Source: Oscillospiraceae bacterium (GTDB lineage: Bacteria; Bacillota; Clostridia; Oscillospirales; UBA929). From it: DNA of 64,000 nt. A program made the position numbers and the translations under genes. The notes under the pieces were generated by a model, which was given only the letters and a program-made list of their open reading frames with translations, ran no database searches and was not told the DNA's origin. Below are positions 19,775 through 56,335 of the stretch, in pieces. Where the stretch lies: assembly GCA_009782475.1 (NCBI GenBank), contig WRIZ01000007.1, positions 1-64,000 of the forward strand, read 5' to 3'. Numbering within the stretch: the stretch's first letter is position 1; every line of letters begins with the position of its first letter.

Positions 19775-20629
19775 TCAGCCATTTATGATCTGCGTGCCGC
19801 AGCCTTCGTCGGTCAGCATTTCCACCAAAAGCGAATGCGGGGCGCGGCCGTCGAGGATGACGGCACTCTTAACGCCCCTTCGCAAAGCGTCCACACAGCA
19901 GTCCACTTTGGGGATCATGCCTTTGCTGACGGCTCCGCCGCGTTTTAAGGCGGGAATCTCGCTCAGTTTGACTTCGGGGATGAGCGTCGCCGGATCGTCT
20001 TTATCGCGCAGCAGCCCCGGTACGTCGGTCAGCAGGATCAGCTTTTCCGCGCCCAGCGACGCCGAGAGTTCGGCCGCCGCCGTGTCGGCGTTGATGTTGT
20101 ACGACGTTTCGGCGTCAATGCCGCGTCCAACGGTCGAGATGACCGGGATATAGCCTTTTTCCAGCAGCAGTTCCACCAGTTCGGGGTTGGGCTTTTTAAT
20201 GTCACCCACCAAACCGTAATCGTTCGCACCTATCAATCGTTCGGCAGGAAAAAGGTTGCCGTCTATCCCTGACAAGCCGACTGCCTTGCCGCCCCGTCCG
20301 GCGATTTGGGAGACAAGGTTTTTGTTCACAAGGCCGCACAGTGTCATCTGTACGACGTCCATCGTCTCCTCGTCGGTGACCCGCAACCCATCCGCAAACC
20401 GGGACTCGATCCCCAAACGGTCAAGCAGGGCGTTGATCTCCGGGCCGCCGCCGTGAACCAACACAAGGCGGATGCCCACCAGCGAAAGCAAAACAATATC
20501 GCCGATGACGGCTTCGCGCAGCTCGGTTTTGTCCATCGCCGCGCCGCCATACTTCACAACCACCGTCTTGCCGCTATATCGCTGGATATACGGCAGGGCT
20601 TCGGTTAGGACTGTTATTTTGCTTGTCAT
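19775..20629 (-). CDS. argB: Acetylglutamate kinase
   Basis: VVKYGGAAM; LVLVHGGGPEINALLDRLGI; NINADTAAAELSASLGAEKLILLTDVPG. Confidence 0.96.
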   Translation of the reverse strand: MTSKITVLTEALPYIQRYSGKTVVVKYGGAAMDKTELREAVIGDIVLLSLVGIRLVLVHGGGPEINALLDRLGIESRFADGLRVTDEETMDVVQMTLCGLVNKNLVSQIAGRGGKAVGLSGIDGNLFPAERLIGANDYGLVGDIKKPNPELVELLLEKGYIPVISTVGRGIDAETSYNINADTAAAELSASLGAEKLILLTDVPGLLRDKDDPATLIPEVKLSEIPALKRGGAVSKGMIPKVDCCVDALRRGVKSAVILDGRAPHSLLVEMLTDEGCGTQIING

Positions 20630-20638
20630 ATGTCCTCC

Positions 20639-20718
20639 TGTCGCGCTCCATGCGCGCTTCGCGGGCAGTGCCGGAAGTGAATTCCTTCACTTACGAAGCG
20701 ATGGAGCAGCTCTTTTCT
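20639..20718 (-). ncRNA. Structured intergenic element, copy 1 (unknown family)
   Basis: Minus strand AGAAAAGAGCTGCTC-CAT-CGCTTCG-T-AAGTGAAggaaTTCACTT-CCGGCACTGCCCG-CGAAGCG-CGC-ATG-GAGCGCGACA; nested perfect stems; ends and bulge shared with 56163-56280. Confidence 0.7.
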
Positions 20719-20719
20719 A

Positions 20720-21934
20720 TCATGTCCTGTAAGCCCCGTTGATTTCCACGTATCGTTCGGTCAGGTCGCAGCCGAACGCTTCGGCTTCAAAGCCTCCGTC
20801 GTGCAGGTCGATCAAAATCTGCACCTCGTCGCGGCTGAGGATGCTCTTGGCCAATTCCTCATTGAACGGCAGCCCCAAGCCGTCTTTGCAGACGTCGATG
20901 GTTTCGCCGGAGGAGCGGAAGGATATGTCCACATTTTCGGGCTTAAACGGAGCCTTGCTGTACCCCATCGCACAAAGGATACGGCCGAAATTGGCGTCGG
21001 CTCCGTACATCGTCGCTTTGACGAGGTTGGAGGAGATGACGCTCATGGCCAGTTTTTCGGCGCAGGCTTCCGAGCTCGCGCTTTTGACAAGGCAGCTGAT
21101 CAGCCTGCTCGCGCCTTCGCCGTCCCGGGCGATCATCCGCGCCAATTTGCCGTTGACAAAGTTGACAGCCTCTAAAAACGTCCGATATTCGGGGCCTTTC
21201 CACTCGATCTGCGGATTGCCCGACAGACCGCTGGCCAGCACCGCCACCATATCGTTGGTGGATGTATCACCGTCCACACTGATGCGGTTGTAGGTGATGC
21301 GATTGCTGTCACTCAGCGCGGCGTGCAGCATCTCCGAGGTGATGGCGGCGTCGGTGGTGATGAACGCCAGCATGGTGGCCATATTGGGGTGGATCATGCC
21401 GCTCCCTTTGGCGATGCCGCCGACGGTGACGGTTTTCCCCGCGATTTGGACTTGGACGGCCGCTTGTTTATCGCAGGTATCGGTCGTCATAATGGCCGCC
21501 GCCGCGTCGTCCGAACCGTAACGGGACAGCTCTTTGACCAGCGCGGGGATGGCATTAACGATGGCTTCGGCTTTCAGCGGTACGCCGATGACGCCGGTGG
21601 AGTTGACGATGATCTCATCGGGGCGTATGGAGAGCTCTTTGGCCAACGCTTCGCAGGTCGCCCACGCGTTTGCCTCCCCGTCCGGGGCGCAGGCGTTGGC
21701 GTTGCCGCTGTTGGCGATGATGGCGCGCGCCGTGCCGCGCATGAGATTGCGCTTGGTCACCTGAAGGGGGGCGGCCTGCACTTTGTTGGTGGTGTAGAGG
21801 GCGGCGACGGTACAGTCGCAGTCGGCGTAAATCAGCGCGAGGTCTTTCTTCGCGGCGTTTTTGCGAATCCCGGCATGGACGCCGGAGGCGGAAAACCCTT
21901 TTGCGGCGCAGCAGCCGCCTTGTATTTCATTCAT
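20720..21934 (-). CDS. argJ: Glutamate N-acetyltransferase / amino-acid acetyltransferase
   Basis: GGCCAAKGFSASGVHAGIRKNAAKKDLALIYAD; AKGSGMIHPNMATMLAFITTDA; DGDTSTNDMV. Confidence 0.96.
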   Translation of the reverse strand: MNEIQGGCCAAKGFSASGVHAGIRKNAAKKDLALIYADCDCTVAALYTTNKVQAAPLQVTKRNLMRGTARAIIANSGNANACAPDGEANAWATCEALAKELSIRPDEIIVNSTGVIGVPLKAEAIVNAIPALVKELSRYGSDDAAAAIMTTDTCDKQAAVQVQIAGKTVTVGGIAKGSGMIHPNMATMLAFITTDAAITSEMLHAALSDSNRITYNRISVDGDTSTNDMVAVLASGLSGNPQIEWKGPEYRTFLEAVNFVNGKLARMIARDGEGASRLISCLVKSASSEACAEKLAMSVISSNLVKATMYGADANFGRILCAMGYSKAPFKPENVDISFRSSGETIDVCKDGLGLPFNEELAKSILSRDEVQILIDLHDGGFEAEAFGCDLTERYVEINGAYRT

Positions 21935-21947
21935 GATCGACGTCTCC

Positions 21948-22838
21948 TTATAAACCAAACTTCAATTTGAAACATTGAACGGCTCCGCCGGACGCGCCTT
22001 TGCCGAGATTATCAAACCTTGCGGCGGCAACCGTTTGGAGTTTCTGCCCGAAGACGAAAATCTCTAGGTCGTCCGTCCCGTTACAGGCTTCCATATCCAG
22101 CCGCCCGTTTTCCAGAGATTCTTCCCCGCCGAACGGCATGACCTTGACGTGTTCGGCTCCGTGATACCATTCCTCCAGCGTTGCGTGGACGCCGGGCGCG
22201 TACAACGGGAGGGGGATGGAAACCAGCATCCCCTGTTTCACCGGTGCGAGAACGGGCATAAAGATGGGCGGCGTATCCATTCCCGATACCGCCTGCATCT
22301 CCGGCAGGTGTTTATGCTGAAGGCTTAACGCGTATGGGCGGGCTCCGCGCGGCGGGTTTTCGCCTTCGTACTCGGCGATCATGGCTTTGCCGCCTCCGCT
22401 GTAGCCGGTCAGGGAGAAACAGGACAGCACTTTATAAGGAGCCACCCATTTCTGACGGACAAGGGGATAAATGACGGCGCAAAACCCGGTTGCGTGGCAG
22501 CCGGGGACGGCGATGCGGTTGGAGGATTTGACCATATCCCGGTGCTCCCTTGACAGTTCGGGGAAGCCGTACGCCCAGCCGGGATGGGTGCGGTGGGCTG
22601 TCGAGGCGTCAAAAATGACCGTTTTGGGGTTGGTGACAAGGGAGACGGCTTCACGGGCAGCTTCATCCGGCAGGCAGAGGAAGGCCGCGTCGGCCGCGTT
22701 GAGCCGCTCAGCCCGGGCGGCGGGGTTTTTACGCTCCCCTTCCCCGATTTCCAGCAGTTCCACTTCCGATATGGCGCGCAGTTTCTCCTCGATCTGCAAT
22801 CCTGTTGCCCCTTCACGCCCGTCGATGAATACTTTCAC
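21948..22838 (-). CDS. argC: N-acetyl-gamma-glutamyl-phosphate reductase (GTG start)
   Basis: VFIDGREGATGLQIEEKL; VPGCHATGFCAVIYPLV; GYSGGGKAMIAEYE; GTGA overlap with the argH stop. Confidence 0.94.
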   Translation of the reverse strand: MKVFIDGREGATGLQIEEKLRAISEVELLEIGEGERKNPAARAERLNAADAAFLCLPDEAAREAVSLVTNPKTVIFDASTAHRTHPGWAYGFPELSREHRDMVKSSNRIAVPGCHATGFCAVIYPLVRQKWVAPYKVLSCFSLTGYSGGGKAMIAEYEGENPPRGARPYALSLQHKHLPEMQAVSGMDTPPIFMPVLAPVKQGMLVSIPLPLYAPGVHATLEEWYHGAEHVKVMPFGGEESLENGRLDMEACNGTDDLEIFVFGQKLQTVAAARFDNLGKGASGGAVQCFKLKFGL

Positions 22839-55397: not shown

Positions 55398-56009
55398 TTA
55401 ACTCTTTGCCGCCCTTCCGTGGATGAGCCAAGACAACCTTTTATAGGTCAGGAAGGTGATCAGGCCGATTGACACGCCTTTCAGCAGGTTGAACGGTGTG
55501 ATGGACAAGAGCACTACCTTCCACAGGCTGTCAACAGCGGGGATGATGGCGGCGCAAATGCCTATTAAAACTTCCTCGGGAACCATCACCCTTGTGAAAA
55601 ACGGAACGGTGATATAGTAATTCGCGAATATCCCCACAAACGCCATGGTAAACACGCCGATTCCCATCCCCAGCAACGCGCCGCCGCGTGTTTTCCGAAA
55701 TCGGTAAACCATCCCGGCCGGCAGCACCAACGCGGCACCCACGATGAAGTTGGCCAGTTCGCCAACCCCGCCGGTGGTGGTCACCGTAAGATGTATCGCG
55801 TTTTTCAGCAGTACGATGGTGACCCCGGCGACCGGGCCGAAAGAGAACGCCCCAATCAATGCCGGAAGCTCGGAAAAATCCATTTTCAAGAACTCCGGGA
55901 AAATCGGCAGCGGGAATTCCAGTATCATCAGAACGGAGGCCACCCCGGCCAGCATGGCTGTGACCGTCATCACGCGGAGGCTGCTTTTCATCGTTTTCAC
56001 CATTATCAT
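55398..56009 (-). CDS. ribU: Riboflavin ECF transporter S component
   Basis: FPEFLKMDFSELPALIGAFSFGPVAGVTIVLLKNAIHL; FMN riboswitch upstream. Confidence 0.93.
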   Translation of the reverse strand: MIMVKTMKSSLRVMTVTAMLAGVASVLMILEFPLPIFPEFLKMDFSELPALIGAFSFGPVAGVTIVLLKNAIHLTVTTTGGVGELANFIVGAALVLPAGMVYRFRKTRGGALLGMGIGVFTMAFVGIFANYYITVPFFTRVMVPEEVLIGICAAIIPAVDSLWKVVLLSITPFNLLKGVSIGLITFLTYKRLSWLIHGRAAKS

Positions 56010-56057: not shown

Positions 56058-56082
56058 GACAACGCATAAAACTATGCGGCTC

Positions 56083-56317
56083 ACCTTCTTCCATCCAGAC
56101 TGTAACTGTCGGCACCGGAATCACACCGGTTCAGCGGAAATATTCCGCTCGCGGGCTTTGAATGTCGCGCTCTGTGCGCGGTTCACGGGCGGTTGCGGAA
56201 ACCTCTCCGGTTACGTTCGCAGGCTCACTAGACCTGCGAGGTGTTCCGCTCCCTGTGACCCGACAGAGCAGCTCTCTTCTTACCGCCGGTGGGGACTTTC
56301 ACCCCGCCCTGAAGATG
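56083..56317 (-). ncRNA. FMN riboswitch (RFN element) with enlarged variable region
   Basis: Minus strand CTTCAGGGCGGGGTGAAAGTCCCCACCGGCGGTA ... AGCCCGCGAGC ... GATTCCGGTGCCGACAGTTACAGTCTGGATGGAAGAAGG. Confidence 0.95.
56163..56280 (-). ncRNA. Structured element, copy 2, inside the FMN riboswitch variable region
   Basis: Minus strand AGAAGAGAGCTGCTC-TGT-CGGGTCAC...GTGAACCG-CGC-ACA-GAGCGCGACA; same ends and CGC bulge as 20639-20718. Confidence 0.7.
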
Positions 56318-56335
56318 TATTTACTTTTGGACTGC

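Follow-up and report, generated by a model that had tools for sequence, protein, structure and literature searches.

The argJ-argB gap and the FMN riboswitch

The window, a stretch of 64,000 nt from the 2.1 Mb draft genome of an Oscillospiraceae bacterium, carries two copies of a palindromic element on its minus strand, one between argJ and argB and the other within an FMN riboswitch. Bit scores of the element listed below refer to two covariance models, R1, built from 14 copies of this genome (hereafter the own genome, G000), and R2, a broader model built from 93 matches (89 distinct).

19775-20629, minus strand: argB, acetylglutamate kinase, the downstream gene (TIGR00761, 260 bits)
20634-20638, minus strand: Shine-Dalgarno sequence of argB, GGAGG, directly 3' of copy 1 (sequence)
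20639-20712, minus strand: element copy 1, between argJ and argB, 74 nt (77.9 bits with R1, 70.7 bits with R2; ends from a flank profile of 87 copies)
20639-20642, minus strand: unpaired 3' tag GACA of copy 1, TGTC on the other strand (flank profile, 87 copies)
20645-20651, minus strand: 3' strand of stem P1 of copy 1, ATGGAGC (sequence, fold, covariation)
20652-20654, minus strand: one-sided CGC bulge of copy 1 (fold; the family consensus leaves these three columns unpaired)
20701-20707, minus strand: 5' strand of stem P1 of copy 1, GCTCCAT (sequence, fold, covariation)
20720-21958, minus strand: argJ, the upstream gene (NF003802, 468 bits)
55398-56009, minus strand: ECF transporter S component, downstream of the FMN riboswitch (NCBIfam ECF_S_folT_fam, 24.9 bits, cut-off 60)
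56079-56320, minus strand: FMN riboswitch aptamer holding copy 2 (RF00050, 103.2 bits, alignment)
56163-56274, minus strand: element copy 2, with a longer apical insert, 112 nt (77.9 bits with R1, 76.9 bits with R2)

An earlier note, made from the letters of the window, had described copy 1 as spanning 20639-20718; the element proper occupies 20639-20712, and the remaining 20713-20718 belong to the A-rich flank. The similarity that it quoted is exact: the 38-nt block shared by 20639-20676 and 56163-56200 (plus-strand letters) is identical at 31 of 38 positions, and the opposite ends, GAGCAGCTCTTTTCT (20704-20718) and GAGCAGCTCTCTTCT (56266-56280), agree at 14 of 15. Its naming of the neighbours as argJ and argB is borne out by the profile matches, and copy 1 does adjoin the argB Shine-Dalgarno sequence, its terminal GACA being followed immediately by GGAGG, while the argJ stop codon lies 7 nt before the element. 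Minimum-energy folding turns both minus strands into stable hairpins (z = -2.2 and -2.6) that contain the closing stem proposed in the note; the CGC bulge, proposed for both, is present in the fold of copy 1, whereas copy 2 opens slightly differently at this place. A terminator-like or promoter-like signal was looked for at copy 1 and none was found, and an intrinsic terminator is rejected there.

The location of copy 2 inside the FMN riboswitch is a feature absent from that first reading. The copy sits in a loop treated as variable, and passed over, in the Rfam alignment, and the aptamer is intact with the copy in place, its score falling within the range of the riboswitch in congeners (97-118 bits). 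The product of the downstream gene is probably an S component of the riboflavin type, as judged from the riboswitch. In one congener (G006, locus L118, G006:C4:120-297) the same loop contains a version of the element of about 40 nt, whose stem is different but paired. In another (G005, locus L116, riboswitch at G005:C29:59171-59335) a different palindromic insert occupies the last hairpin loop of the orthologous riboswitch; since this is another loop, hairpins have entered the FMN riboswitch at two different loops within the genus.

Copy number and distribution

The element had been taken to exist in two copies, and a covariance-model search of the host and its relatives had been proposed. With a limit of E<1, model R1 finds 42 matches in the own genome, of which 39 remain at E<0.001, and copy 1 used as a DNA query retrieves other full-length copies from the genome down to E = 1e-21, so that the resemblance is not a matter of chance, even though the E-values are rough. 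Among the congeners (G001-G006, which like the other genomes include drafts), R1 has 28-30 matches in two, 8 in a third and 0-2 in the others. The 52 genomes from outside the genus gave almost nothing, and the 39 order-level genomes beyond the family gave no match. With R2 the counts are 43 in the own genome, 33 in G005, 22 in G002, 11 in G006, 3 in G001, 1 in G003 and 0 in G004; of the 13 family members from other genera, 2 are positive (G015 with 3 matches, G008 with 1). A pattern of the exact ends, run against 85,488 species genomes from which the own genome was possibly left out, returned a single record, a metagenome-assembled genome of the Oscillospiraceae. A first search with 10-mers was uninformative, as its reversed control gave nearly as many matches.

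The best identity between two copies of the own genome is 91%, which we count against the interpretation favoured below; the three copies of G015 are 97-98% identical to each other. None of nine copies searched with their flanks against Rfam exceeded a gathering threshold, the matches at E<1 being at chance level, in agreement with the earlier statement that the element cannot be assigned to a known family. A phage or plasmid origin was also considered, and no match was found.

Anatomy and conservation of pairing

The consensus of the element reads GAGC-T-GCTCCAT-CGGCTCGC-AGGGAG-(apical hairpin)-CGACCGNCC-GCGAGACG-CGC-ATGGAGC-GYGACA. It comprises an outer stem of 7 pairs plus two weaker ones, the CGC bulge on the 3' side and a second stem of 7-8 pairs. 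The internal loop is asymmetric and contains conserved letters, and the 3' end is an unpaired ACA. The first pairs are G-U, A-U or G-C, and then mostly C-G. The apex is variable: it may consist of a few bases or of longer nested hairpins common to several copies, and other palindromes are often contained in it. Most copies are 72-137 nt long, with a few eroded forms near 40 nt. A 21-nt palindrome (ACGCCWAGCRTACGCTWGGCG) was observed at 14 places among the fetched loci: at the apex of the copies in L147 (at about 2052) and L183 (at about 1353), in L204, L206, L208, L213 and L228, and in other hairpins.

The boundaries are sharp. In the flank profile of 87 copies the last four bases are G in 80, A in 87, C in 85 and A in 87, percentages that are slightly optimistic because the copies had been pre-selected for ACA or ATA endings. 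The element starts with GA, the flank upstream of it is merely A-rich, and there is no strong preference 3' of the ACA. For a target duplication in the same 87 copies, no length or offset stood clearly above shuffled pairings.

The proposal that the hairpin is maintained by compensatory change, and is not coding, is strongly supported. In the structure-fitted alignment of 89 distinct sequences 93.2% of the pair cells are paired, and 335 cells are doubly changed, where shuffles give 98.6 and slid controls 25-76. Because this alignment had been fitted to the structure, the outer stem was retested in a structure-blind manner, with letters counted from the ends: 91.8% of its cells are paired, with 116 double changes as against 31 (maximum 47) in shuffled data, although the related copies are not independent in such significance tests. 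G-U pairs outnumber C-A mismatches 47 to 16 overall when the two end pairs are excluded, yet in the outer stem alone the ratio is 23 to 19, so that the excess comes from the inner stems, which were aligned with the structure model; as a sign of RNA it is only suggestive. Coding sequence is rejected as an explanation: the copies lie between genes, even if some reach back into the upstream frame and contribute the stop codon that ends it. An ftsE-like gene is a case in point: in L048 (1501-1575) and L141 (2001-2075), which come from two species, its last codons and its stop are part of the element.

Filled and empty sites

Among the relatives, whose argJ-argB gaps the earlier note had suggested inspecting for empty sites, the element is missing from G005, G001 and G004, where the two genes overlap (ATGA) or abut. 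G003 has a short gap with a ribosome-binding site of its own, G006 another version of the element and G002 a diverged hairpin. The ribosomal-protein operon provides six further cases: the copies between rpsQ and rplN and between rplF and rplR are unique to G000, and those between rplB and rpsS, rpsS and rplV, rplX and rplE, and rpsM and rpsK are unique to G005. Each is placed precisely between the stop codon and the Shine-Dalgarno sequence, where all or most of the congeners (seven congeners) have a short spacer. Given such clean empty sites, the copies are insertions. Several insertions complete a TAG stop codon with their first G. These lineage-specific insertions in the ribosomal operon of close relatives constitute a natural experiment on the effect of an intercistronic hairpin on expression. 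Other short repeats, composed of units similar to TTGACAATTGACA, also fill ribosomal-protein gaps, namely rplW-rplB in L185 and L188 and rpmJ-rpsM in L189, in G000, G003 and G004.

Other sites are occupied in several species. Between infA and rpmJ the element is found in G000 and G006, while G005, G003 and G001 have what look like its eroded remains, mini-hairpins or fragments. The insertion between ftsE and ftsX (names read from translations) is common to G000 and G005, its outer stems differing by a double change from A-U to G-C. Different or eroded versions occur in several species in the infA-rpmJ and argJ-argB gaps, in the gap upstream of a yicC-like gene and in the FMN riboswitch loop. 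Some insertions are therefore old, and some gaps may represent hot spots or places where copies are exchanged.

Position and orientation

Analysis of the neighbouring genes, which were called with an ad hoc caller based on codon usage, reveals that between co-directional neighbours 70 copies are in sense and 13 in antisense orientation. The bias is concentrated in tight gaps: it is 30:0 where the remaining gap is at most 40 nt and 35:1 where it is at most 60 nt, while wide gaps have 28 sense and 10 antisense copies. Rescue of a stop codon cannot explain it, because the copies lying wholly outside both reading frames are also distributed 17:0. All 6 adjacent pairs of model matches are arranged head-to-tail, with spacers of 5-8 nt. 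One tRNA cluster (L193, G000:C2:136648-137113) has three copies among its genes, two of them antisense to the tRNAs, and a related antisense copy is present in a tRNA region of G002 (L169). We regard the strict sense orientation as the most interesting trait of the element.

Interpretation

The family is an uncatalogued, dispersed, inserted and genus-restricted one, with about 40 copies in the own genome. We consider it, with a probability of about 0.8, a non-autonomous mobile palindrome, similar to REPs and MITEs, that is carried in mRNA as an intercistronic hairpin, on the grounds of its repetition, sharp ends, empty sites, covarying structure, position and sense bias. According to this reading, a new copy would insert at A-rich places without duplicating the target, and copies would survive either between a stop codon and a Shine-Dalgarno sequence or where a structured RNA has a loop that tolerates them, as in the FMN riboswitch. 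Transcribed within the mRNA, as we infer, the element would place a stable hairpin, followed by the unpaired ACA, immediately ahead of the ribosome-binding site, and would be tolerated because both neighbouring translation signals are left intact. It would then act as an intercistronic spacer and probably also as a stability or processing element, with a possible influence on mRNA stability or on coupling.

It is unlikely that the element is of the REP type, mobilised in the form of single-stranded DNA by a transposase of the Y1 (RAYT/IS200-like) kind, with a sense bias that only mirrors a replication-strand preference. Such an origin would fit the missing target duplication, the conserved unpaired tetranucleotide at one end, and the conservation of structure rather than sequence, but the corresponding domain, PF01797, was not found in the copy-richest genomes G000, G005 and G002 (drafts 91-95% complete) and is present in G004, which has no copies. 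A reverse transcriptase was not found in G005 and G002, drafts of the same completeness; neither enzyme tracks the copy number, and both are rejected as the mobiliser. The GC skew is too weak to give the direction of replication directly. The copies take the orientation of the adjoining genes also in regions where the majority of genes within 20 kb is on the other strand, and no agreement with the regional majority is seen for copies outside tight gaps; this argues against an effect of the replication strand alone. Moreover, 35:1 exceeds the bias expected from a leading-strand share of 80% (p = 0.003, related copies being treated as independent).

The sense bias might instead have been set by movement and not by later selection, the element spreading via nascent mRNA or via single-stranded DNA exposed by transcription, with the aid of a machinery that recognises structure and is distinct from both Y1 transposases and resident reverse transcriptases. 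We hold this to be improbable; in any case, the bias makes it possible to test concretely whether RNA function or the mode of movement shapes such repeats.

A cis-regulatory RNA, i.e. a protein-binding leader or a riboswitch through which the downstream gene responds to some signal, would share the sense orientation, the place upstream of start codons, the conserved internal loop and bulge, and the covariation. It is nevertheless a very unlikely identity for the element, whose neighbours have no common pathway (argB, ribosomal proteins, the ftsE/ftsX-like pair, tRNAs, the interior of a riboswitch), whose copies are present or absent at one and the same gene depending on the congener and in several cases form head-to-tail arrays, and whose copy 1 has no expression platform such as a terminator. 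That the copies are ancestral intergenic hairpins, never mobile and lost in some congeners, is hardly credible: the ftsE-ftsX, infA-rpmJ and argJ-argB sites are indeed common to two or more species, but in most congeners an empty site is an intact, compact junction of two genes, the filled copies at unrelated loci are related to each other and have identical ends, and G015 has its three nearly identical copies.

Comparison with described repeats

The nearest described kind is the super-family of CGTC-tagged REPs (Di Nocera et al. 2013, PMC3733652), which includes RPE-4 and RPE-6 of Rickettsia and dRS3 of Neisseria. Its members have an unpaired CGTC, TGTC or CCTC at one end of the palindrome, TGTC being a reported variant; they are 20-40 bp long with a stem of 8-9 bp and a loop of 4-5, have A-T at the first and second stem positions and a CCA tail at the other end, and form mostly head-to-head dimers, head-to-tail ones being negligible, with no dedicated transposase found (PMC3733652). 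Our element is likewise an imperfect palindrome with an unpaired TGTC tag (on the strand opposite to its sense), intergenic and near or overlapping coding regions, with alternative complementary stem letters and no dedicated transposase identified. In contrast to these REPs it is 40-140 nt long, with two stems, an internal loop and a three-base bulge; its first two pairs are not A-T, its other end is GA instead of CCA, and its arrays are head-to-tail (6 of 6 adjacent pairs). Its host, a genus of Oscillospiraceae, belongs to a group for which PMC3733652 lists none of these repeats, and the element adds a well-delimited family there; for the strict sense orientation we found no counterpart in that survey. 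From the GTAG REPs associated with RAYT it differs by the GACA/TGTC end and by the lack of detectable PF01797 in G000, G005 and G002.

The transcribed bacterial MITEs, NEMIS, ERIC, YPAL, RUP and Bcr1, form hairpins for which an effect on mRNA stability or cleavage by RNase III has been proposed (PMC2229807, PMC3733652). With them the element shares the non-coding nature (70-300 bp), many copies, hairpins beside genes, and filled and empty sites; unlike them it has no target duplication or TA ends, its inverted repeats do not match perfectly as far as the ends, no insertion sequence corresponding to it was identified, it is GC-rich, and pairing is conserved rather than the end sequence. Compared with a classical MITE, it has the filled and empty sites (argJ-argB and six ribosomal-protein gaps) but not the target site duplication. 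Since the tag agrees with the CGTC-tagged REPs but the size, stem, tail and dimers do not, and the empty sites agree with MITEs but the duplication does not, the element is REP/MITE-like and is filed under neither described family. The earlier note had envisaged a described REP or MITE as the outcome that would refute it; the element is one in kind, yet outside any described family.

The palindromic elements of Rickettsia insert in genes and RNA genes and are characteristically read in frame inside proteins (PMC2229807). They resemble our element in that a palindrome is tolerated inside a functional structured RNA, but the host RNA is a riboswitch here and in-frame reading is not the rule. Three traits of the element are uncommon: the near-absolute sense orientation in operon gaps, the compensatory pairing, and the residence in a riboswitch loop with the aptamer kept. 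Double-hairpin elements and GC clusters of algal, sponge and fungal mitochondria are also repeated mobile palindromes that spread through the intergenic spaces of compact genomes; the present element differs from them by its bacterial chromosome, its conserved ACA end and bulge, and its strand bias, and the resemblance may serve as a lead only.
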